Assembly (NCBI GenBank): GCA_023473795.1
Contig: JAMCYS010000041.1
Coordinates: forward strand, 78,370 to 120,048
Direction: 5' to 3'
From: Chloroflexota bacterium
Lineage (GTDB): Bacteria > Chloroflexota > UBA6077 > FW602-bin22 > JAMCYS01
DNA: 41,679 nt
The translations under genes and the position numbers were made by a program. The notes under the pieces were generated by a model, which saw only the letters and a list, made by a program, of their open reading frames with translations, did not search any database and had not been told where the DNA came from. Below are positions 10,557-36,340 of this stretch, piece after piece. The first letter of the stretch is position 1. Every line of letters begins with the position of its first letter.

Positions 10557-11798
10557 TTGAGCGCAAAGGCGATTCACAGCCAGGTGGTCGAGGTGCGCGG
10601 CCACATCATCGATTCTCAAATCCTGCCCAGGATTCTGGACGACATCCTCGACAGCGAGTGCGAATTCGTCATCGAGGAGATGCGGGTGGGCCGCACCCGG
10701 GGAGATCCGAGTTACGCCCGGGTCGAGATCACGGCGCCCACGGCTGAGGCGCTCAACGAAATCGTGGCCCGAGTGCGCCAGGTGGGCGCACAACCTGTCC
10801 AGACGGGGCAGGCCAAACTGGAGCCAGCGCCGACGGACGGCGTGTTCCCGCTTGATTTCTACTCTACCACCAATCTGCAAACGACGATCAACGTCGGGGG
10901 GCGCACGCTCGCCGTGGCCAACCCAGAAATGGACTGTGGAGTCTTGGTGGAGGGCAACAGCGCCCGCTGCCTGCCGCTGAGCGAAGTGAGGAAGGGCCAA
11001 ATGATCGTGGTTGGGCACCAGGGCGTCACCGTGATGCCGCTGGAACGCCCGCGCGGCCCCTCCTCGACCTTCGCCTTCATGAGCAGTTCTGTCTCCAGCG
11101 AGAAACCGCGCGCCGGTCTCATCCACGACCTGGCACGCGAGATCAGGCAGGTGAAAAGCGAAGGCGGCAAGGTCCTCGTCGTCGCCGGCCCGGCCGTCGT
11201 CCACACGGGCTCGGGAGAGCTCCTCGTCAGGCTCATTTCGGGCGGCTGGATAGACTACCTCTTCGCTGGCAACGCGTTGCCAACCCACGACATCGAGTGG
11301 GCGCTGTACGGCACCGCTCTGGGCGTCTCGCTCACGGAAGGACTACCCCTCGAGAGGGGCCACGAACACCACCTGCGGGCGATCAACCGCATCCGCCACG
11401 AGGGCGGGATTGCCTCTGCCGTGCGCAAGGGAGTACTGACCAAAGGCATAATGTACGCCTGCGAGACTCACGGCGTGGACTACGTTCTGTGCGGCTCCAT
11501 CCGGGACGACGGCCCGCTGCCCGAGGTGTGCACCGACGTCATCGAGTGCCAGCAGGCAATGCGCCAGCGAATCCACTCCGGCGTGCGGGTGGCCATCATG
11601 CTTTCGACGATGTTGCACTCCATCGCCGTGGGCAATCTGCTCCCCGCCCACGTCACCACCGTCTGCGTAGACATCAATCCGGCGGTAGTAACCAAGCTGG
11701 CGGATCGGGGCACGTTCCAATCGCTGGGTTTGGTGATGGATGTGGGCAGCTTCCTGCGGGAACTCCTCGACGACCTGGGGAGGCCACAGGACAGATAG
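10557..11798 (+). CDS. Ornithine cyclodeaminase-like LOR/SDH domain protein (TIGR00300 family)
   Basis: 413 aa. The N-terminal ~100 residues (VVEVRGHIIDSQILPRILDD, then FVIEEMRVGRTRGDPSYAR) match the LOR/SDH conserved domain. The C-terminal part has a Rossmann-like region (KVLVVAGPAVVHTG) and DYLFAGNALPTHDIEWALYG, GHEHHLRAINRIRHEGG and VCVDINPAVVTKLADRG. This architecture is known from archaeal-type ornithine cyclodeaminases and from the C-terminal half of the cyanobacterial arginine dihydrolase fusion. The predicted reaction is NAD-dependent conversion of ornithine to proline plus ammonia. I chose TTG 10557, with GAGG 9 nt upstream; GTG 10521 is a less likely start. It stands alone without an arginine-hydrolysing domain. 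Confidence 0.8.
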   Translation: MSAKAIHSQVVEVRGHIIDSQILPRILDDILDSECEFVIEEMRVGRTRGDPSYARVEITAPTAEALNEIVARVRQVGAQPVQTGQAKLEPAPTDGVFPLDFYSTTNLQTTINVGGRTLAVANPEMDCGVLVEGNSARCLPLSEVRKGQMIVVGHQGVTVMPLERPRGPSSTFAFMSSSVSSEKPRAGLIHDLAREIRQVKSEGGKVLVVAGPAVVHTGSGELLVRLISGGWIDYLFAGNALPTHDIEWALYGTALGVSLTEGLPLERGHEHHLRAINRIRHEGGIASAVRKGVLTKGIMYACETHGVDYVLCGSIRDDGPLPEVCTDVIECQQAMRQRIHSGVRVAIMLSTMLHSIAVGNLLPAHVTTVCVDINPAVVTKLADRGTFQSLGLVMDVGSFLRELLDDLGRPQDR

Positions 11799-11813: not shown

Positions 11814-12656
11814 CTAGTAAATGCGAGCTTCGGCGCCGGCGACCGCCGAGGCTCGGAGCGCGATGGTCGCGAGAGCCTCGCTCGTCAGCTGCGTCAGGCC
11901 GCCCTCGGCCGGCACACGGTCCAGCGAGTAGATCTGCAACCGCTCCGGCCGCAGCCTTTTCACCGCCTGCAGCCAGTTCTCGACCTGCTCAGGCGAGGCG
12001 TTCCCCTGAGTCCCGCCCACGAAGAGGGTCTGCAAGGTGAACGAACCCAGCGCCCGCAGACCCTCAACGACATCCGCCAGGCTGACACCTGGACAGGGAC
12101 GGTTGACTTGGCGGAACGTCGCCTCATCCCCGGCGTCCAATTTCATTATGCGCAAGTCCAGCTGTCGCAGCGCCCGAGTAACGGTCGGCCGGCCGGCAGT
12201 GGAGCTATTGGAGAGCACGCTCACCGCGGCCTCCGGACTGAGGCGGTCGCGCAAAGCCAACAGGCCGGTCACGATGTCGGCGAACTGGGGGTGCAGCGTC
12301 GGTTCGCCATTGCCAGAAAGGGTGATGGATTGCACGGCATCATTCTCGGCGAGCGCCTTCTCGACGGCACCAAGGACCTCGTCCGCACTGGGCAGCTGAT
12401 GTCGAGACGGCAGCACGCCCGTTGCCGCGTAGGCCAAGTTGCAGCGCACGCACTGACGGTGGCAAGGAGCCTGGGGTGAGTTGGAGGGTAGGGCGTAGCC
12501 ACGCGGCTGGCGTAGCTGGCAGTATGCGCAGTCGAAAGTACAGACTTTGTGAGCGGCCCCGAGCACGTTGACGCCCAGTGAGCGCCCCAGCCGACGAGAG
12601 TTCACCGGGCCGTAGATTATGTCCTCTTTCACACGGACGGGGCGAAGAGCGCTCAC
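11814..12656 (-). CDS. Radical SAM protein (COG0731-like) with a second CX3CX2C motif
   Basis: 280 aa. The radical SAM cluster motif is VCTFDCAYCQ (Cys39, Cys43, Cys46), preceded by YGPVNSRRLGRSLGVN, which is typical of COG0731 Fe-S oxidoreductases related to wybutosine-type enzymes. SLSGNGEPTLHPQF is the SAM-binding GGEP-type segment. A second CX3CX2C (Cys65, Cys69, Cys72) lies in an insertion just after the first. The GTG start overlaps the rimM stop (GTGA), making it the last gene of the rpsP-khpA-rimM operon, which hints at a role in RNA or ribosome modification. Substrate unknown. Confidence 0.85.
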   Translation of the reverse strand: MSALRPVRVKEDIIYGPVNSRRLGRSLGVNVLGAAHKVCTFDCAYCQLRQPRGYALPSNSPQAPCHRQCVRCNLAYAATGVLPSRHQLPSADEVLGAVEKALAENDAVQSITLSGNGEPTLHPQFADIVTGLLALRDRLSPEAAVSVLSNSSTAGRPTVTRALRQLDLRIMKLDAGDEATFRQVNRPCPGVSLADVVEGLRALGSFTLQTLFVGGTQGNASPEQVENWLQAVKRLRPERLQIYSLDRVPAEGGLTQLTSEALATIALRASAVAGAEARIY

Positions 12657-13216
12657 AGCATGCCCGGTAGAGGAGTGATCACTAGCCTGCCCTGCACGAG
12701 GTCAACCTCCGCGATGACGTCCTCGATCGCCGGCACTAACACTTCGCGCCCGTCACCCTGGACGATATAGACGTCGTTGCTGCCCGTCGCCAGAATATCA
12801 GTCACCTTGCCCAGATGCTGACCGGACTGAGTCCAGACCTCCAGACCGATGATCTGGTACCAGTAGTACTCGCCCTCGCCGAGAGGCATGGCGTCGGCCA
12901 CCGGAACGTACACCAGCTGACCGCCAAGAGGCCGAGCAGCCTCCGGGGTGTCCACCCCGACTATCTTCATGAGTACCCGGTCAGGTAGGACGCGCACCGC
13001 CTGCACCTCGCAAGAGCGGTGTTCTTCTCCCAGGTAGACTTGTCGCAGTTTCTTGAAGCGCTGGGGGAAATCGGTAAGGATGCGTACGCGAAAATAGCCG
13101 CGCACGCCGTGGGGTGCCGCTATCTCGCCAACGGCGAGGAAATCGGTACCCACCTGGCTTGCCGGCTCTGGCGGCGCCTCACGGCGCCTGGGGCGGCGTT
13201 CGCCCGGCCCGGGCAC
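12653..13216 (-). CDS. rimM: Ribosome maturation factor RimM
   Basis: 187 aa. FLAVGEIAAPHGVRGYFRVRILTDFPQRF is the N-terminal RimM barrel; EYYWYQIIGLEVWTQSGQHLG and LVPAIEDVIAEVDL are the PRC-barrel. RimM binds ribosomal protein S19 and helps 30S head assembly. The first ~22 residues (P/R-rich) extend beyond the usual start and may be non-native: a GTG just before GTDFLAVGEI is an alternative start. It follows khpA by two bases and overlaps the radical SAM gene by four. trmD, the usual neighbour of rimM, is not here but at 31085. Confidence 0.93.
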   Translation of the reverse strand: MPGPGERRPRRREAPPEPASQVGTDFLAVGEIAAPHGVRGYFRVRILTDFPQRFKKLRQVYLGEEHRSCEVQAVRVLPDRVLMKIVGVDTPEAARPLGGQLVYVPVADAMPLGEGEYYWYQIIGLEVWTQSGQHLGKVTDILATGSNDVYIVQGDGREVLVPAIEDVIAEVDLVQGRLVITPLPGML

Positions 13217-13218
13217 GC

Positions 13219-13446
13219 TCAGACTATCTCCAGGGTGACCCTTTTGCCTTCGCGCGCGGCCGCCACTTTCACGAGATTGCGGATGTGGTTGGCGATGCGG
13301 CCCTGCTTGCCGATGATGCGTCCCTTGTCCTCACGAGCAACACGCAGCTCGATCACCACGGACTGGCCGCCGCCCAGTTCGCGCACTTGAACCTGATCCG
13401 GGAACTCCGCTAGTGACTTGGCGATGTACTCGACAAGTTCAACCAT
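13219..13446 (-). CDS. khpA: KH-domain RNA-binding protein KhpA (YlqC family)
   Basis: 75 aa, the full length of the family. A single KH domain with the GXXG loop in GRIIGKQGRIAN near residue 43. Its ATG abuts the TAA of rpsP directly (TAAATG), showing translational coupling. KhpA is a small RNA chaperone that partners with KhpB/Jag in other bacteria, and its position between rpsP and rimM is widely conserved. Confidence 0.92.
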   Translation of the reverse strand: MVELVEYIAKSLAEFPDQVQVRELGGGQSVVIELRVAREDKGRIIGKQGRIANHIRNLVKVAAAREGKRVTLEIV

Positions 13447-23757: not shown

Positions 23758-24363
23758 ATGGTTTCGGCGGCTGTGCTGGCCGGCGGCAAGGCGGCCAGGA
23801 TGGGCACCGACAAGGCACTGATCAGGCTACGCGGCCGGACTCTGCTCGCGGCCACGATAGCGGCGGTGAGCACGCTGACCGACGATGTACTCGTCGTCGG
23901 CAGGCAGCAGCAGGCCGCGGATTTCGTCAGCGCTAGATTCGTGCCCGACGTGCGGCCCGGGGCGGGGGCGCTGGGGGGAATTTACACCGCGCTTAGCGCT
24001 GCTCAGCATCCGCGCTGTATCGTCGTCGGGTGTGACATGCCCTTCTTGAACCCTAGGTTACTCTTCTATCTGGCGGACCTCTCAGCAGACTTTGACGTGG
24101 TAATCCCCCGGGTTGGAGGCTTCCTGGAACCATTGCACGCCGTTTACGCCAGCACCTGCCTTCCGCCTATCGCCAGATTACTGGAGCAGGGCGTGCTACG
24201 CATTCTGGACTTCTTTCCCGAGGTCCGCGTCCGTTATGTCGACACAGAGGAGATGCGGCGCTTCGGCGATGTCTCCCTTTCTCTGTTCAACGTCAACACG
24301 CCGCAGCAGTTGGAGCAGGCACTGGCCCTAGCGGGGCGAGGAGGAGCGCGCATTGATGATTAG
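23758..24363 (+). CDS. mobA: Molybdenum cofactor guanylyltransferase MobA
   Basis: 201 aa. VLAGGKAARMGTDKALIRL is the NTP-binding signature LAGGxxxRMGxDKAL. VVGCDMPFLNPRLL carries the metal-binding aspartate, and GGFLEPLHAVYA matches the substrate loop. MobA attaches GMP to molybdopterin to make the MGD cofactor, used by DMSO-reductase-family enzymes but not by AOR-type tungsten enzymes. It overlaps moeA by 8 nt, so the two are coupled. Confidence 0.93.
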   Translation: MVSAAVLAGGKAARMGTDKALIRLRGRTLLAATIAAVSTLTDDVLVVGRQQQAADFVSARFVPDVRPGAGALGGIYTALSAAQHPRCIVVGCDMPFLNPRLLFYLADLSADFDVVIPRVGGFLEPLHAVYASTCLPPIARLLEQGVLRILDFFPEVRVRYVDTEEMRRFGDVSLSLFNVNTPQQLEQALALAGRGGARIDD

Positions 24364-25612
24364 CGTTGAGGCAGCTCTGCAACGAGTCCTCGAACAAGTG
24401 GAGCAGCTGCCGCCCGAAGAAGCGCCGCTGCTGGAGACGCTGGGCCAGGTGCTGGCAGAGGACGTCGTGGCGCACTTGGATGTCCCGCCCCTCGACAACG
24501 CCGCCATGGATGGCTACGCGGTGCGGGCCGCCGATACCACGGCTGCCGACGAACACAGCCCCGTTTCCCTGAGAGTCATCGCCGACCTGGCCGCTGGCTA
24601 CACGACCGACATCGTGGTCGGGCCAGGGACAGCCATACGCATTATGACCGGCGCTCCGCTCCCCGCCGAGGCCGACGCGGTGGTGCAATTCGAGCATACG
24701 GACGAGGGACGGCGCGTTAACCCCCGCCTGGAGCCGGCACGGCGGGAGAACGTGGCCATACTCGTACCAGCCAAGTCCGGTTTGAACGTGCGCCGCGCGG
24801 GGGAGGATATTCGCGCCGGTCAGGTGGTTCTACGCCGAGGGACGGCCTTGCGGCCAGCAGAGCTGGGCGTCTTAGCCTCGCTGGGCAGAAGCACGGCCCT
24901 GGTCTATCGCCGGCCACTGGTGGCCGTGCTCTCCACGGGCGACGAGCTAGTGCCTCTCGGGCAGCCGCTGCGGCCCGGACAGATCTACAACAGCAATAGC
25001 TACGCCATCGCCGCGCAGGTGCGGCGTACCGGCGGGGTGCCGCTGCTGCTCGGCATCGCCCGCGACCTGCCCGAAGAGCTGATCGCCAGACTCCATGAAG
25101 CCCGGCGAGCCGACCTGCTGATCACGACAGGCGGGGTATCGATGGGCGACTTCGATGTCGTCAAAAACGTGCTGGCTTCCGAGGGCGAGGTCACTTTCTG
25201 GCGCGTGCGTATGAAGCCCGGCAAACCGCTAGCTTTCGGTCGGATCGGCCCTACGCCCCACCTTGGCTTGCCGGGCAACCCGGTGTCCGCGATGGTGACG
25301 TTCGAGATGTTCGCTCGCCCGGCGATCCTCAAGATGATGGGCAAAGGCAACTATCGCAAGCCCTCGGTTCGGGCAACCCTCGAGCAAGGCGCCCGCAACA
25401 CCGACGGGCGTCGGGTCTACCTGCGCGCTTACGTGCGGAAGGTCGGCGATGATTTCGTTGCCAGTCTCACCGGACCACAGGGTTCGCATATCGCCACCTC
25501 GATGACTGGGGCCAACGGACTGGCCATACTGCCGGAGGATGCCGCCGAGGTACGGCCTGGCGAGCGCGTTCAGGTACTGATGCTCGACTGGCCGGAGGAT
25601 GAGAATCTATGA
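24356..25612 (+). CDS. moeA: Molybdopterin molybdenumtransferase MoeA
   Basis: 418 aa, normal length. PLDNAAMDGYAVRA (domain I/II), IRIMTGAPLPAEADAVV, VAVLSTGDELVPLG and TTGGVSMGDFDVVKNVL in the MoCF-binding domain, and PHLGLPGNPVSAMVTFEMF near the C-terminus. It inserts molybdate (or tungstate) into adenylylated molybdopterin. ATG 24356 overlaps the end of mobA; TTG 24353 is an alternative. Its TGA overlaps the ATG of the giant GNAT fusion (ATGA), tying that gene to the operon. Confidence 0.95.
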   Translation: MISVEAALQRVLEQVEQLPPEEAPLLETLGQVLAEDVVAHLDVPPLDNAAMDGYAVRAADTTAADEHSPVSLRVIADLAAGYTTDIVVGPGTAIRIMTGAPLPAEADAVVQFEHTDEGRRVNPRLEPARRENVAILVPAKSGLNVRRAGEDIRAGQVVLRRGTALRPAELGVLASLGRSTALVYRRPLVAVLSTGDELVPLGQPLRPGQIYNSNSYAIAAQVRRTGGVPLLLGIARDLPEELIARLHEARRADLLITTGGVSMGDFDVVKNVLASEGEVTFWRVRMKPGKPLAFGRIGPTPHLGLPGNPVSAMVTFEMFARPAILKMMGKGNYRKPSVRATLEQGARNTDGRRVYLRAYVRKVGDDFVASLTGPQGSHIATSMTGANGLAILPEDAAEVRPGERVQVLMLDWPEDENL

Positions 25613-28600
25613 CGGAAGTGGAAATCAGGGGGCTGCGGGACGACGACGTTCCCAGCCTAGTACGAATGTGGAACAGCACCGAGGACCTGTGGCCTGGCGG
25701 CTTCACCTCGGGCATGCCACTGACGGTGGATCGCGTCCTTCGTTGGCACCACAGTACGGACTTTATCAGACCCGTCGCCGCCTTCGTCGGCGGCGAGGTC
25801 GTAGGCTTCTGCGGGCTGACCCGCGTGCCAGGAGAACCGGACGCGGCCTACATATCGATCCTGGGTGTTGGTCCGGACGTAATCGGTCAGGGAGTGGGCC
25901 GCACTCTGGTGCTGGCCGCCATTGACCTAGCCACCAACCTGGGTTTTCGTAGACTGGACCTAGACACCTGGAGCGCCAACGACCGTGCGCTGCCACTCTA
26001 CAAGCGAACCGGCTTCCATTGGGTGCCGGGTACGTCCGTCAATATGCAGAACTTCATACCCGCCCTCCTCCGTCACCCTCTGGTGCAGCGCTTCCTGAAC
26101 GACACGGATTGGTACCAGGCCTTGCGGCCCAATATCACCTTCACTGAGGATCTGTTCGAGGAGGGGAACATTCCGGTGTTCCCCTACGTCTTCGAGCGCG
26201 CAGACGACCGCCTAGCCCTGGCGTTGGCTGTGGGAAGCGGCGAGGTCGTCGCCTACGAAGACGGCGAAGTGGCGGTCACCGCGGCTTTGGCCCGGCCATT
26301 CCTGGTGGTGGGGCAGCCTGGTCTCGCCAGGTGGCAAGTCCACAGGAAGAATGGCGCGGCAGAGCCGTTCACCTTCTCTGCCCTGGGACAAGGCGGCATA
26401 GCGGCCGGGAAGTCCCTGGTGGCGGACGCGGCCGAGGCGGCAACGCTGGAAGTCCCTGTCCTGGCGCCGGATCTGCCGGAGGCAGGCGCCGATGGCAAAC
26501 CGAAGGTTACGGCAATCCTCGCCTTGGGGAACACGATCCTCGAACTGGGAGTGCCCCTGCGGGTGGCACCGCCAGTAGAGCTGTCGGCGGAGCCTAAGCA
26601 GGTGTCGCTTGCCCCTGGCGTGGCCGGCACTTTCTGGGTCACGGCCAAGAGCAATCTGGAGAGTGCGCTGAATCTGCGCCTGCAACTTACAGCCTCCCCC
26701 CACCTGCAGGTACGGCCCCTGACTTCCTTGGTTCTGGAATTGGCGGGGGGGGCTTCCAGCACCGTTTGTCTGGAGGCCCGCGCTGAGCCGGGCGTCCATT
26801 CACTTGTCGTTCTGCCCGAGCTGCCCAGCTCCCGAGCTGGGACCTGGGACCCCGCTCCCCACCGGCTGACCGTGCCTGTGGTAGCGGTGGGACCGGGCGA
26901 CGCTTTTGCCAGCCGCACGGCTGAGGGCGCGCTGCTTGAGAACGCCACCCTGCGCGCTCTAGTCTCCGCCAGGGGTGGCTCTCTGCGGGTGCAGACGAAG
27001 AACCCAACCCAGGACCTCGTCGAACAGCGCAGCGCCGTGGGACCGCCCTTCTGGCCCGGCGAGTTTGCCCACAGGCGTTTCGACCTGGAAATCGAGAGCA
27101 CAGAGGGCAAGGCGACAGTGCGTCTGCGGGCGGATTCGGATCGCTGGCCAGGGCTTGCGCTCGTCTACGACATCACCGTGACGGCTTCGCCCCGACTGGA
27201 GACCACATACACCCTTGTCAACACGAGCAGCAGCCCACTCGCACCGAGCGTGCGCGTCGAACACATGATGCGCCTGCACAGCTCGCTCGTGGCCGTGCCG
27301 CTTTCTGAGGGGCTGCTGGTGGACTCAGCCGAGGCTGCCGAATGGGAGGGCGGGGGCAGTGAGCCGGAGTGCTATGCCGAGACGTGGGCGGCCCTCGCCC
27401 GCGATGAGCTGGCCGTGGGTTTCCTCTGGCCGGCCGGCAGTCGCCCAGAGTTCTCCAGACGCTTCGGGCCTTTCTTCACCCTGCCGCCGACGCCACTTCA
27501 GCCTGGAGAGACCCTCCCCGCTGGGCGGCTAGTTCTGTTCGCGGGGGCCGGCGGCTGGCCCACCGTGCGCCAGCAGTGGCGGCAACTATTCGACCCCGCG
27601 GCACCACCCCGAGCGCCACGCCCACTGCGGGCCGCCGACGTGCGAGTGCGCCCAGACCCCGTGGTCTGGACCGGCAGTCCGGTCGACACCGGACTGAACT
27701 TGCGCCATCTGCGCCAGCGGTCGCTTGCCGGCAACATGAGCCTATCGTTGCCCAGCAATTGGCAGGCAACGGAGAGCGAGTGGCGTTTCGCCGAGCTGCG
27801 GCGCGGTCGTGCCGCCACGTTCAGGACGACGATATCGCCAGCCCACGGCGCCTGGGGTGAGTATCCGCCAGCGGATGAGGCTGTTCTCAATCTCCATGCC
27901 AACCTGGCCATTGCCAGGCAGCCCCTCGCCCTCCTGGCATTGGGGCAGGGCAACGGGCAGGTGGCCATCCGGGAGGTCGCGAGGCACGGGAGAAAGGTGC
28001 TGGAGATCGACAACGGCTGGACACGGGTAGCCGTGGCACCGGATTTCGCCGGCACGGTGGTAGGTTTTGAGCACGCGGGTCGGAACCACTTGTTCTCGGC
28101 CTTTCCGGAGCCTGGGGCGCTGATGTGGCAGCGCCCTTGGTTTGGGGGCATCGGCCCCGTGGTCGCCTCGGCCGGCGAGCATTTCCACCCCATCCACAGC
28201 GGACACCTGCACGAGGAGCAGGTCACGGCGCAGCATCCGGTGGGCCGGGCCCTGTTGGGCGCCGTGTGGCAAGGCATACGCTTGGTTGCCAACCTCAAGC
28301 GACCGAAAGGCATTCGGTTGGAGACCGAGTACCTGACTCTGACCGGCAGCAACGCTCTCCTGGCCGTGGTACGGCTGTCGAATCTGACCACGGCGCCCCA
28401 GCGTCTGCAAACTTTCTTGGGCTGCTACTTGCGCGTCGATGGGGATCTGACTGGCACCGCGCTGCGCTACATCGCGGATGGCGAGCACAACACCCGCCGC
28501 GCGGCGTATGATGTCTGGCTGGCGCCGTCGGCCGATTGGGCAGCTCTGGAGAACGAGAAGAGCGGCCTGACCGCCGCTCTGATCAGTCTCACGCCGTGGG

Positions 28601-28788
28601 CTTACATCCAGGCCTACAATCTGGGGCTGGACGGGGCGCACCTTTTCAACGTTGGCGAAGTCCTGCTTGCGCCCAGCAGCAGCGAGGAGTACTCGACGCT
28701 CTTCATCCTCACCGACAGCCCGGACAAGGCCAGGCGCTATCGGGCTTTAGGCTGGTCCGGCAGCATCGGTACGCCGCCGGAACACTAG
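25609..28788 (+). CDS. GNAT acetyltransferase fused to tandem carbohydrate-type beta super-sandwich domains
   Basis: 1059 aa. Residues 1-145 are a GNAT domain: acetyl-CoA loop GVGPDVIGQGVGRTLV, then NDRALPLYKRTGFHWVPG. The rest is beta-rich: an Ig/CARDB-like segment at about 320-430 (ELSAEPKQVSLAPGVAGTFW), a first mutarotase-like sandwich around 440-640 (LENATLRALVSARGGSLRV), an Ig-like linker, and a second one from about 790 to the end (VLEIDNGWTRVAVAPDFAGT, GEHFHPIHSGHLHEEQV). No signal peptide or membrane helix, so it is predicted cytoplasmic, which is odd for glycan-type folds. The ATG overlaps the moeA stop (ATGA). The GNAT call is firm; the super-sandwich call is by pattern. The substrate could be a sugar or glycolipid. 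Confidence 0.75.
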   Translation: MTEVEIRGLRDDDVPSLVRMWNSTEDLWPGGFTSGMPLTVDRVLRWHHSTDFIRPVAAFVGGEVVGFCGLTRVPGEPDAAYISILGVGPDVIGQGVGRTLVLAAIDLATNLGFRRLDLDTWSANDRALPLYKRTGFHWVPGTSVNMQNFIPALLRHPLVQRFLNDTDWYQALRPNITFTEDLFEEGNIPVFPYVFERADDRLALALAVGSGEVVAYEDGEVAVTAALARPFLVVGQPGLARWQVHRKNGAAEPFTFSALGQGGIAAGKSLVADAAEAATLEVPVLAPDLPEAGADGKPKVTAILALGNTILELGVPLRVAPPVELSAEPKQVSLAPGVAGTFWVTAKSNLESALNLRLQLTASPHLQVRPLTSLVLELAGGASSTVCLEARAEPGVHSLVVLPELPSSRAGTWDPAPHRLTVPVVAVGPGDAFASRTAEGALLENATLRALVSARGGSLRVQTKNPTQDLVEQRSAVGPPFWPGEFAHRRFDLEIESTEGKATVRLRADSDRWPGLALVYDITVTASPRLETTYTLVNTSSSPLAPSVRVEHMMRLHSSLVAVPLSEGLLVDSAEAAEWEGGGSEPECYAETWAALARDELAVGFLWPAGSRPEFSRRFGPFFTLPPTPLQPGETLPAGRLVLFAGAGGWPTVRQQWRQLFDPAAPPRAPRPLRAADVRVRPDPVVWTGSPVDTGLNLRHLRQRSLAGNMSLSLPSNWQATESEWRFAELRRGRAATFRTTISPAHGAWGEYPPADEAVLNLHANLAIARQPLALLALGQGNGQVAIREVARHGRKVLEIDNGWTRVAVAPDFAGTVVGFEHAGRNHLFSAFPEPGALMWQRPWFGGIGPVVASAGEHFHPIHSGHLHEEQVTAQHPVGRALLGAVWQGIRLVANLKRPKGIRLETEYLTLTGSNALLAVVRLSNLTTAPQRLQTFLGCYLRVDGDLTGTALRYIADGEHNTRRAAYDVWLAPSADWAALENEKSGLTAALISLTPWAYIQAYNLGLDGAHLFNVGEVLLAPSSSEEYSTLFILTDSPDKARRYRALGWSGSIGTPPEH

Positions 28789-32699: not shown

Positions 32700-33434
32700 T
32701 CAGCTCGCCGGCTCAGCAATCACCACCAGGCGGTCAGTGTACTGGTGGCTAAGCACATCCCAATCGCCAGTGCAGGTTATCAACGTTATGTGCTGGCTTG
32801 TTGTCTGATTCATTACTGACAGATCGTTGTAGGGTACCACGAGGACCTGCGTCACCAGGTAGGTCCACATCCGCTGGTCAGTGTATACCCTTATTTGCGC
32901 GCCCACCTTGACCTTGGGCAGGTTGGCGAAGACGTTGCCGCTGCTCAGGCTCTCGATGTGGCCAACATACACGCCGTTGCCATTCTGCCCCGGGTTGGCG
33001 GTCGAGGTGTAGTGCCCGACGTAGAACTTGGGCACTTGATACTCACCGTCTTTGATCCCGGCCGAGACTACCCGCGACTCGATGCCGACGCTCGGTATGC
33101 TCATGCCCACCGGTTCTGGATAGCTGGGCACGGGCGTGGCCGTGTTAGTTGCTCCCGGTGTAGGTGACCCAGTGGGCGCCGGAGTGGCCGTGTTGCCGGC
33201 CGCCGCGGGCGCGGGTTGAGCAGTCGCGGACGGCGTCGGCGTGCCGTTGCCGCTGCCGGCGGCGCGAGCGTAGGCTGCTTCGAGGCGCGCCAGCCAAGGG
33301 TCGGCCCGCGCCTGCTGTTCCTGCCAGTAGTTGTAGCCATAACCTGCCGTAGCCAGCAGGACTATGGCCACACCCAGGCCAATGAGTAGGTTCGCCAGAA
33401 AGGTAGACGGCCTCCGCCGTGAGCGATTATCCAT
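32700..33434 (-). CDS. Class D/E/F-like sortase
   Basis: 244 aa. One N-terminal membrane anchor (residues ~13-34, NLLIGLGVAIVLLATAGYGY), a T/P/A/G-rich linker (about residues 62-105) that would span the wall, then the sortase barrel. The catalytic triad is seen as GHIESLSSGNVFANL (His), TLITCTGDWD (Cys) and YTDRLVV (Arg). Start ATG 33434 with AGGA upstream. No LPXTG-type substrate gene is adjacent, so it may be a housekeeping or pilus enzyme whose partner lies elsewhere. It argues for a cell with an exposed wall or S-layer anchor rather than a classic outer membrane. Confidence 0.9.
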   Translation of the reverse strand: MDNRSRRRPSTFLANLLIGLGVAIVLLATAGYGYNYWQEQQARADPWLARLEAAYARAAGSGNGTPTPSATAQPAPAAAGNTATPAPTGSPTPGATNTATPVPSYPEPVGMSIPSVGIESRVVSAGIKDGEYQVPKFYVGHYTSTANPGQNGNGVYVGHIESLSSGNVFANLPKVKVGAQIRVYTDQRMWTYLVTQVLVVPYNDLSVMNQTTSQHITLITCTGDWDVLSHQYTDRLVVIAEPAS

Positions 33435-33472
33435 TCGCAGAATCCTCGTCAAAGTACCACAGGCCTACGGGC

Positions 33473-33580: not shown

Positions 33581-33654
33581 AAGAGCAACTCGTTTGCCAG
33601 AGCCCCGTGGCGAAGGCGCGGGGTATTCAGATCGGGCAGAGGGAGGGGCTACTG

Positions 33655-34272
33655 GTGATCGAGGAAGAGCTAAAACGTGATGATGACCTGTTCGAATTGC
33701 CACCGACGACCTTCGACGAAGAGCGCATTCGCAACGCCGTCACGGAGATTCTCCTGGCTATAGGCGAAGATCCCTCCCGAGAAGGTCTCAGAGAAACGCC
33801 GCGACGCATCGCCGAAATGTATCGCGAAGTCTTTTGCGGCTTGCAGGCCGACCCGCGCGACGTGCTCGCGGTGGGCTTCGAGGAAGGGCACCAAGAGATG
33901 ATCGTCCTGCGCGACATACCGTTCTACTCGATGTGCGAACACCACCTGCTGCCCTTCCATGGGGTCGCCCACATCGGCTATATCCCCAAAGGTAGGGTGG
34001 TCGGCATCAGCAAGCTGGCCCGAGTGGTGGAAACCCTGGCACGACGGCCGCAGCTCCAGGAACGATTGACATCCCAGATAGCCGACTCGATCGTCGAGGG
34101 CCTGCAGCCCCAGGGAGTCGCCGTCGTCGTTCAGGCCGAGCACCTTTGTATGACAATGAGGGGAATCAAGAAACCGGGAACCCTGGTCGTCACTTCCGCT
34201 AACCGCGGTTTGTTCAGGAGACCAGCAACCCGCGCCGAGTTCTTCTCCATTATCCGGGAGAATCGCGGTTAG
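33655..34272 (+). CDS. folE: GTP cyclohydrolase I FolE
   Basis: 205 aa from GTG 33655, which has GGGAGGGG just upstream; GTG 33607 would add 16 residues. Zinc and catalytic motifs: [14 protein letters not shown] and [16 protein letters not shown], with [20 protein letters not shown] between. It converts GTP to 7,8-dihydroneopterin triphosphate, the first pterin of folate synthesis. First gene of folE-folP-folK-PTPS. Confidence 0.95.
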
Positions 34273-34285
34273 GAGGGGGTATCCC

Positions 34286-35482
34286 GTGTGGAACGCCCGC
34301 GTGCTCTCACTCACTTCCCGGGCCCAGGTCGAGGCCGAAATGGCCGCCGTGGGCGTCGACCCGCTGGGCGTGCGCATAATGCTGCCCAAAGCCCTCTTTC
34401 GCGTCGTCAAGGTGGAGGGTCTACCTACCAACGCGGCCAACATCGTGAAGCAGGAGATGCTGGCCAAGGGCGGCGAGGCGGCGCTTTCCTGGGCAGGTTC
34501 TCTTTCGGCCAGTGCCAAGACCGATGTCCTACTGATGGGCACGGCGCGCCACTTCGCACGTCTGGTCGCGCGCCTGCGGATGCACCCGTTCGGTTTGCGC
34601 GATTTGGCCGACGAGCTCCGCGAGGCTCTGGATCAGTATGAATCGCCACTCCCACCGAGCGTCTGGCGCGGCACGACCTTCACCTGGGGCAGCCGCACTT
34701 ACGTCATGGGCATTGTTAACGTCACCCCTGATTCATTTTCCGGCGATGGGCTGGGTGCCGACGTGCCCGCCGTCGTCGCCCAGGCGGTGCGGATGGTAGA
34801 GGAAGGGGCCGACCTCATCGACGTCGGCGGCGAGTCGACCAGGCCCGGGCACAAGTCCGTTAGCGTCAAGGAGGAACTGCGGCGGGTTCTGCCAGCCTTG
34901 CACGCCGTTCGGCAGGCCGTTGAGGTGCCACTTTCGATAGATACGTACAAGTCCGAAGTCGCGGCCGCCGCCCTCGCGGCGGGGGCGGACCTCGTAAACG
35001 ATATCTGGGGCTTGCGCCGGGATCCCCACATGGCACACGTCGTGGCAGAGGCCAAGGTCCCGGTAATCTTGATGCACAACCAGGAAGGCACGCAGTACAC
35101 TGATCTAATGGCCGACATCATGCGTTCACTCAGGGAGAGCATCGCCCTCGCCCGCGTGGCCGGCATACCAGAGTCCAATATCTTGCTCGATCCAGGTATC
35201 GGTTTCGGCAAGAGGCGCGAGCAAAATCTCGAAGTGCTGGCGCGGTTAGACGAGCTGCGCGTCCTTGGCCGGCCAATTCTGGTTGGCACCTCACGTAAGT
35301 CTACTCTCGGCCATATTCTGGGCACGCCGCCCGACGATAGACTTGAGGGAACGGCAGCTACGGCAGCCCTGGCCATCGCCAAAGGCGCGGATATCCTGCG
35401 GGTGCACGACGTGAAGCAAATCGTCCGGGTGGCCCGAGTGGCCGACGCCGTGGAGCGAGGACGTTGGCAAGAGTATTCCTGA
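34286..35482 (+). CDS. folP: Dihydropteroate synthase FolP (long form)
   Basis: 398 aa, with the catalytic TIM barrel in residues ~135-390: MGIVNVTPDSFSGDG, DVGGESTRPGH, NDIWGLRRDP, LDPGIGFGKRREQN and VGTSRKSTLG are all present. The first ~130 residues are a separate domain (VDPLGVRIMLPKALFRVVKV, AANIVKQEMLAKGG) of the kind found in long DHPS forms of several anaerobic Firmicutes; its role is unclear. GTG start with AGGAGGGGG 6 nt upstream. It condenses hydroxymethyl-dihydropterin pyrophosphate with para-aminobenzoate. Overlaps folK by 19 nt. Confidence 0.93.
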   Translation: MWNARVLSLTSRAQVEAEMAAVGVDPLGVRIMLPKALFRVVKVEGLPTNAANIVKQEMLAKGGEAALSWAGSLSASAKTDVLLMGTARHFARLVARLRMHPFGLRDLADELREALDQYESPLPPSVWRGTTFTWGSRTYVMGIVNVTPDSFSGDGLGADVPAVVAQAVRMVEEGADLIDVGGESTRPGHKSVSVKEELRRVLPALHAVRQAVEVPLSIDTYKSEVAAAALAAGADLVNDIWGLRRDPHMAHVVAEAKVPVILMHNQEGTQYTDLMADIMRSLRESIALARVAGIPESNILLDPGIGFGKRREQNLEVLARLDELRVLGRPILVGTSRKSTLGHILGTPPDDRLEGTAATAALAIAKGADILRVHDVKQIVRVARVADAVERGRWQEYS

Positions 35483-35967
35483 GCTTAGGGAGCAACGTGG
35501 GCGACCGCAGAGAAAACCTGCGCCGGGCGATCAACCGCCTCCGTGAGAACGTGGCGATAGACGCGCTGTCGTCGGTATATGACACCGCCCCGGTCGGCCT
35601 CTTGGATCAACCGCGCTTCCTCAATCTTGCCTGCGCCGGCGAGACTAAGCTCAAGGCGCACGAACTGCTGATCTTCGCCAAGGGGATAGAACGCCAGCTG
35701 GGACGTCTGCCGACCGTGCCTTATGGGCCGCGAGTCATAGATATAGATATACTACTGTACGACGGTGTGGTTGTTCACCTGGACGACCTCACAATACCAC
35801 ATCCCAGACTGCGCGAACGAGCCTTCGTTCTAGCGCCGCTGGCCGAGATCGCGCCCGATGCCGTGGACCCTACAGACGGCCGCACGATCGCGGAACTGTG
35901 GCGCGCACTGCCCGCTCAGGACGTTCGCCCTCTGGCCGAAGACGAGGGGAGGCTTGCCGATGTATGA
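35464..35967 (+). CDS. folK: HPPK, 6-hydroxymethyl-dihydropterin pyrophosphokinase FolK
   Basis: 167 aa. FLSLGSNVGDRRENLRRAI and GPRVIDIDILLYDG, plus DLTIPHPRLRERAFVLAPLAE, are the three HPPK signatures. TTG start inside the end of folP. It phosphorylates the pterin that FolP consumes. No folB aldolase is fused to or beside it. Overlaps the PTPS gene by 8 nt, so the last three folate genes are translationally coupled. Confidence 0.94.
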   Translation: MARVFLSLGSNVGDRRENLRRAINRLRENVAIDALSSVYDTAPVGLLDQPRFLNLACAGETKLKAHELLIFAKGIERQLGRLPTVPYGPRVIDIDILLYDGVVVHLDDLTIPHPRLRERAFVLAPLAEIAPDAVDPTDGRTIAELWRALPAQDVRPLAEDEGRLADV

Positions 35968-36340
35968 AATCAGCGTCCGCCAGCACTTCGACGCCGCCCA
36001 CTATCTGCGCGACTACAACGGGCGCTGCGAGAACCTGCACGGTCATCGCTACGAAGTGGCTGTCTCCCTGAGCGCGCGGGGCCTGGACGCCAGCGGCCTA
36101 GCTTTCGACTTCACCCGCCTGAAGCGCGTCCTCAAGGAGCGCTTCCTCGACGTCTACGATCACGTTTGCCTGAACGATGTCGCACCCTATGACCGAATCA
36201 ATCCCTCCGCCGAGAACATCGCCCGGACCATGTTCGAGGGCCTCAGCGAACACCTAGCCGACCCTGAGTCACAGGCCAGCCTGCACAGCGTCACCGTCTG
36301 GGAGTCGCCCGACAGTTGGTGCACCTATACGGCCGACTAG
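35960..36340 (+). CDS. 6-pyruvoyl-tetrahydropterin synthase family protein, probable FolB substitute
   Basis: 126 aa, the length of QueD/PTPS proteins. ATG 35960 with GAGGGGAGG 7 nt upstream. Zinc ligands are His14 (FDAAHYL), His27 and His29 in GRCENLHGHRYEV. That motif has both the catalytic Cys23 of PTPS/QueD and a glutamate next to it (CExxHGH), the combination described for bifunctional PTPS-I/III types. PTPS-III enzymes convert dihydroneopterin triphosphate straight to 6-hydroxymethyl-dihydropterin, bypassing FolB. Its place as fourth gene of a folE-folP-folK operon with no folB supports that role; queuosine synthesis (QueD) is the alternative. Confidence 0.88.
   Translation: MYEISVRQHFDAAHYLRDYNGRCENLHGHRYEVAVSLSARGLDASGLAFDFTRLKRVLKERFLDVYDHVCLNDVAPYDRINPSAENIARTMFEGLSEHLADPESQASLHSVTVWESPDSWCTYTAD

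Follow-up and report, generated by a model that had tools for sequence, protein, structure and literature searches.

A GNAT acetyltransferase domain fused to an array of Ig-like and super-sandwich domains in Chloroflexota, other bacterial phyla and archaea

One gene in the 41,679-nucleotide stretch of Chloroflexota DNA analysed here (the window) encodes a protein composed of a GNAT domain and, after it, beta domains totalling about 880 residues. This fusion is real and old; what is new is the architecture, within the known GNAT superfamily, and not the kind of enzyme. Tentatively, the protein is regarded as a cytosolic GNAT N-acetyltransferase for a small amine, with the Ig/super-sandwich part as a putative substrate-binding or scaffold region. 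The gene and its neighbours are:

24353-25612, plus strand: moeA (Pfam MoeA_N, MoCF_biosynth and MoeA_C)
25609-28788, plus strand: GNAT-beta fusion gene, ORF with an ATG start, 1059 aa
28826-29740, plus strand: double-GNAT gene (P0002), downstream of the fusion and found order-wide

The ATG of the fusion gene and the stop codon of moeA share bases in ATGA (junction sequence ...AATCTATGACGG...). An assembly artefact at the join of the GNAT and beta parts, considered in the earlier note as a way in which the fusion could prove false, was ruled out by full-length homologues in many independent genomes; the same architecture recurs across phyla and the GC3 is similar on both sides of the join (0.75 in the GNAT part vs. 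0.74-0.82 in the beta part). The protein had also been described as lacking an export signal, and indeed no signal peptide was seen in it and membrane segments were absent (maximum 19-residue Kyte-Doolittle mean of 1.5). A second candidate in the window genome (G000 C50, E = 7e-4) lay antisense to other genes and was taken as a chance match.

The search for the same domain order across Chloroflexota, which the earlier note had suggested, revealed members in 19 of the 400 sampled genomes. Throughout the family, the GNAT preceded the same beta region wherever contig ends permitted. The same architecture was found in Chloroflexota, Latescibacterota, Bipolaricaulota, Bacillota and archaea at about 20-32% identity. 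The order of the window genome contained the fusion in five of its 13 genomes; among the other 12, full- or near-full-length homologues (28-32% pairwise identity) were present in three and a broken copy in a fourth. An alignment-guided contig scan of named genomes recovered 14 loci, belonging to Chloroflexota, Latescibacterota, Bipolaricaulota (Acetothermia), Halanaerobiales, a Thermoclostridium, Thermoplasmata and another archaeon, whereas the scan with a single protein as the query returned nothing. In the order of Thermoclostridium, 4 out of 33 genomes were positive. No plasmid-borne copies of the beta part were found. The family tree had long branches and weak deep nodes, with the window protein grouped with those of G001 and G010 at 100/99 support. 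The carrier of one family member (G168), whose gene occupies L066 8497-11589 on the minus strand, is very probably the cultivated strain Thermobaculum terrenum YNP1. Two copies had interrupted reading frames. The copy in G002 (L024 16700-18880) contained two in-frame stops and a frame change, indicating a degenerate gene or an assembly error, and the Halanaerobiales copy (L035 9980-13108) contained one in-frame TGA (10829-10831) in the first beta region, with otherwise open flanks, for which sequence error, decay or recoding are possible causes.

In the AlphaFold2 model of the fusion protein, built with 16 aligned members (mean pLDDT 83.4, pTM 0.79), the whole remainder after the GNAT domain was all-beta. 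AlphaFold2, Foldseek and profile comparison gave the layout GNAT - Ig-like - Ig-like - super-sandwich 1 - Ig-like - super-sandwich 2, with the following domains:

25609-26136, plus strand: GNAT acetyltransferase domain, residues 1-176 (Pfam PF00583)
26146-26574, plus strand: first beta region with Ig-like unit, residues 180-322 (AlphaFold2 secondary structure, hhalign)
26575-26880, plus strand: second Ig-like domain, residues 323-424 (AlphaFold2, FixG_C match in the relative L030)
26881-27594, plus strand: super-sandwich domain 1, residues 425-662 (hhalign to super-sandwich 2)
27595-27954, plus strand: third Ig-like domain, NEW3/NPCBM_assoc-like, residues 663-782 (PF10633, hhalign)
27955-28785, plus strand: super-sandwich domain 2, galactose-mutarotase fold with a conserved PWFGGIxP motif, residues 783-1059 (AlphaFold2, Foldseek)

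The Ig-like linkers proposed earlier correspond to three units (residues ~213-322, 323-424 and ~664-782), supported by AlphaFold2, hhalign and Pfam matches in relatives. The first and the third unit each aligned with the second one at an hhalign probability of 90% (E = 1.6e-6). The relative L030 passed the cut-off of the Ig-like FixG_C model (PF11614) at the position equivalent to the second unit, and residues 706-752 of the window protein matched PF10633 (NEW3/NPCBM_assoc) with E = 9.7e-4, below the cut-off. Residues 780-1059 modelled alone (pLDDT 85.4, pTM 0.88) retrieved galactose mutarotases first in Foldseek (3mwx, E = 9.2e-9, probability 1.00, TM 0.66; also 4bze), followed by mutarotase-like proteins, sandwich domains of GH38, GH94 and GH36 enzymes and YidC. 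The mutarotase-type super-sandwiches expected in the earlier note were thus recovered by structure prediction for this region and by homology for residues 424-662, which aligned with super-sandwich 2 at an hhalign probability of 92% (E = 5e-7); in the relative L076, the region equivalent to super-sandwich 1 passed the cut-off of PF14849, the YidC periplasmic super-sandwich. Since the Ig-like units are mutually related and the two sandwiches are homologous, the layout can be read as GNAT - Ig - (Ig - sandwich) - (Ig - sandwich).

At the sequence level, neither super-sandwich profile (A3, A4) matched any PDB chain at E ≤ 10, mutarotases included, and the PDB sequence search with the beta part gave no match. 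No full-length Pfam or NCBIfam model covers the beta region, which general Ig-like and YidC models matched weakly or in part. Foldseek matches of the full-length model (ciliary central-apparatus proteins, complement C5, macroglobulins and LacZ) had TM < 0.2 and were rejected as generic beta-array similarity, not homology.

The GNAT domain appeared intact, as claimed earlier. Pfam PF00583 matched residues 35-136 (E = 1.1e-17, 64.8 bits vs. a curated cut-off of 20.7), and both the GQGVGR loop and NDRALPLYKRTGF were found. The acetyl-CoA P-loop is defined as Arg/Gln-x-x-Gly-x-Gly/Ala (PMC8556138); in the window protein (VIGQGVGR), the G-x-G part was present with the Q one place nearer than in the strict spacing, and most relatives had HG(Q/R)G(V/I)GR. 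A family-specific signature, WPG(G) / GxGxGR / TWxxN...PLYKK.GFxW, was recognized in the GNAT domain. In the alignment of 22 members, fully identical columns fell mainly in this domain (W28, L118, T120, W121, N124, P129, Y131, K132, G135, W138 and P151), with W168 and D181 located just after it. The identity of N124, Y131 and K132 in all 22 members, along with the WPG, TW and GFxW set, implies one conserved reaction.

No His, Asp or Glu in residues 213-1059 was invariant among the 22 members. The conserved residues of the sandwiches were Gly, Pro, Trp, Asn, Leu and Tyr, with no conserved His, and E591 in super-sandwich 1 was the only sandwich acid conserved in at least 85% of members (19 of 22). 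The conserved catalytic His and Glu/Asp of mutarotases were found in neither super-sandwich. As no invariant His or acid occurs in the beta domains, they are read as a non-catalytic region; residue conservation points to a single active site, in the GNAT domain, and to a putative binding or scaffold role for the rest.

The solved GNATs nearest by profile were 2ge3, a probable acetyltransferase, and then PaiA (1tiq, E = 7.9e-11). SpeG (~1e-5) and DpA polyamine acetyltransferases were also matched, in a comparison in which all GNATs cross-match. For the window protein, NCBIfam models gave only weak GNAT cross-matches; the PaiA equivalog model did not match it, and scored weakly in one relative (21 vs. 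250 bits), its cut-off being reached by no fusion member scanned. The GNAT fold and motif layout are common to the fusion, PaiA, SpeG and their relatives, but PaiA and SpeG are single-domain proteins of about 150-180 aa, whereas the fusion adds the WPG...TW...GFxW signature and ~880 beta residues. Bacterial multidomain GNATs of types I-V (PMC8556138) resemble the fusion in combining a GNAT and a non-catalytic accessory region in one chain. As accessory regions they carry an NDP-forming acyl-CoA synthetase-like part, a domain that binds cAMP, NADP or amino acids (ACT), or a second GNAT, with none in type IV (PMC8556138); no Ig/super-sandwich array is among them, and none of their accessory domains was detected by Pfam in the window protein or its relatives. 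The galactose mutarotase-like super-sandwich, known from GalM, from domains of GH38, GH94 and GH36 enzymes and from YidC, is the fold of residues 780-1059 and, by homology, 424-662, but in the fusion it lacks the conserved catalytic His/Glu pair and any sequence-level match, and is placed behind a GNAT. No description of a GNAT-mutarotase fusion, or of an acetylpolyamine/GNAT operon in Chloroflexi, was found in the open-access literature. The family comprises large soluble enzymes of constant multi-domain layout, spread over Chloroflexota, Latescibacterota, Bipolaricaulota, Bacillota and archaea, in which a sugar-enzyme fold has been reused next to an acetyltransferase in the cytoplasm.

Gene context gave little support to the partners suggested by the window itself. 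Coupling with moeA, taken earlier as a functional clue, was seen in one other relative (G001, 54% identity) but at no further locus among those examined, so moeA as a functional partner is unsupported beyond one sister lineage. The best model for the MoeA-like protein was the Glp/gephyrin-like divisome model NF045515 (430.5 vs. a cut-off of 475), not a MoeA equivalog. The proposed pairing with the double GNAT did not hold: 12 of the order's 13 genomes had a homologue of it, whether or not they carried the fusion (5 of 13), and the two genes lay on different contigs in each of the four further genomes of the order with the fusion. Being order-wide and unlinked to the fusion elsewhere, the double GNAT was rejected as a partner.

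Across all loci, neighbours varied and no operon common to the whole family was found. The only recurrent partner was a gene for an acetylpolyamine-amidohydrolase-like deacetylase (PF00850), located directly after the fusion gene on the same strand in six genomes of four genera of the Chloroflexota family f56:

L076 8817-13361: fusion gene followed by the acetylpolyamine-amidohydrolase-like gene; also in L073, L068, L071, L072 and L077

In three loci the deacetylase gene started 2-9 bp past the fusion stop codon, and in a fourth the distance was about 100 bp; in L076 the deacetylase gene occupies 12357-13361. The closest solved structures were HDAC-like acetylpolyamine amidohydrolases (9gkz, E = 3.2e-62; 6phr and 3q9b), and the product is probably a remover of acetyl groups. 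Among the nine f56 genomes, six had both genes and three had neither; the latter three were 77-85% complete and the genes are adjacent, so the joint absence could reflect a missing contig, which weakens the argument. No such gene lies near the window fusion gene, and no deacetylase of the f56 type was found at E ≤ 1e-50 in the window genome or in fusion-bearing genomes outside f56. The pairing is therefore lineage-specific and the amine could differ elsewhere. Related deacetylases occurred in 79 of the 400 Chloroflexota genomes, mostly without the fusion. Enzymes that deacetylate polyamines and others that deacetylate lysines are both found among the classical bacterial deacylases (PMC11532494), so the neighbour hints at an acetylated amine and does not fix which one.

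In the tentatively favoured explanation, the GNAT would use acetyl-CoA to acetylate a small cytosolic amine, a polyamine or a similar compound being the likeliest substrate. The beta array is predicted to bind substrate or a regulator, or to join copies of the protein as an oligomerisation scaffold, and in f56 the ApaH-like enzyme would remove the acetyl group added by the fusion. The acetyl-transfer step is suggested by the conserved GNAT motifs; which amine is acetylated, the role of the beta part in binding and the reversal by the deacetylase, where it is present, are inferred. Against the small-amine reading, the P-loop is altered in some members (QKRSLAR in L029 and L030, HGKKHGK in L031 and L036), and a diverged homologue in G333 is located beside acyl-carrier and deoxysugar genes, which suggests acyl donors or acceptors beyond acetyl-CoA and polyamines. 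A version held with less assurance, and rather doubtful, would make the fusion a further architectural type of GNAT in bacteria and archaea: the duplicated array of Ig and mutarotase-fold domains would sense a carbohydrate-like ligand or present it, and in this way control acetyl transfer or direct it to its target, while in some lineages a dedicated enzyme of the acetylpolyamine-amidohydrolase type would reverse the reaction. The cultivated carrier and the deacetylase neighbour in f56 make the substrate question directly testable.

The G333 homologue (L075 6384-9278; 965 aa, GNAT and beta parts) lies in a natural-product-like cluster. The cluster includes two putative acyltransferases and FabG-like, ACP-like, FabZ-like, DUF6365, GcvT-like, rmlABCD-like, cysteine-synthase-like and ornithine-cyclodeaminase-like genes; the acyltransferases, the ACP and the rml genes were assigned by reading the sequences. 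A literature search for DUF6365 gave nothing relevant.

Acetylation of an intracellular amino sugar or glycolipid/glycan precursor, with the super-sandwich and Ig-like domains binding the glycan part, is considered unlikely. The resemblance of super-sandwich 2 to mutarotases and to the GH38, GH94 and GH36 sandwich domains is consistent with it, as are the conserved W840, W887 and W977, which together with PWFGGIxP could form a sugar platform, the weak similarity of the GNAT to the dTDP-amino-sugar acyltransferase RffC, the rmlABCD-like genes adjoining the G333 homologue and a GH130 or glycogen-debranching gene near two members. On the predicted fold alone, glycan binding by the beta domains is possible. 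However, no sugar gene recurs beside the fusion family, YidC and further proteins that do not handle sugars share this fold, and the recurrent f56 neighbour is acetylpolyamine-amidohydrolase-like. Rather than to a glycan or glycolipid target, as put forward in the earlier note, the deacetylase points to a small amine.

It is more doubtful still that the GNAT acetylates protein lysines and that the beta region serves in client recognition or as a regulatory sensor, which would add the fusion as another type to the multidomain protein acetyltransferases of bacteria. Several domains in one chain, sensor domains among them, are common in bacterial protein acetyltransferases of the GNAT kind (PMC8556138), Zn-dependent deacylases of the neighbour's superfamily, such as PsApaH, sometimes act on lysines (PMC11532494), and the YidC periplasmic super-sandwich is structurally similar; yet acetylpolyamine amidohydrolases are the nearest relatives of the f56 deacetylase and no client gene is linked. 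A bifunctional enzyme combining the GNAT with an active aldose mutarotase/epimerase-type domain is highly improbable despite the fold match to aldose 1-epimerases, such a second activity being nearly excluded by the conservation pattern of both super-sandwiches and disfavoured by the lack of PDB matches to their profiles.

Further observations concerned neighbouring genes. In Latescibacterota, paralogous genes of ~450-480 aa were located downstream of the fusion on the opposite strand (L031 6945-8609 and L036 13154-17299). L036 has three of them in tandem, and the L031 gene that was tested had no Pfam match. In the window, a class F/E type sortase gene (32703-33452, minus strand) scored above the general sortase cut-off and below the curated subfamily cut-offs. 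A pterin/folate run (33607-36337) comprised folE, folP, folK and a QueD-like gene, with the FolP protein carrying ~130 extra N-terminal residues ahead of the DHPS domain.
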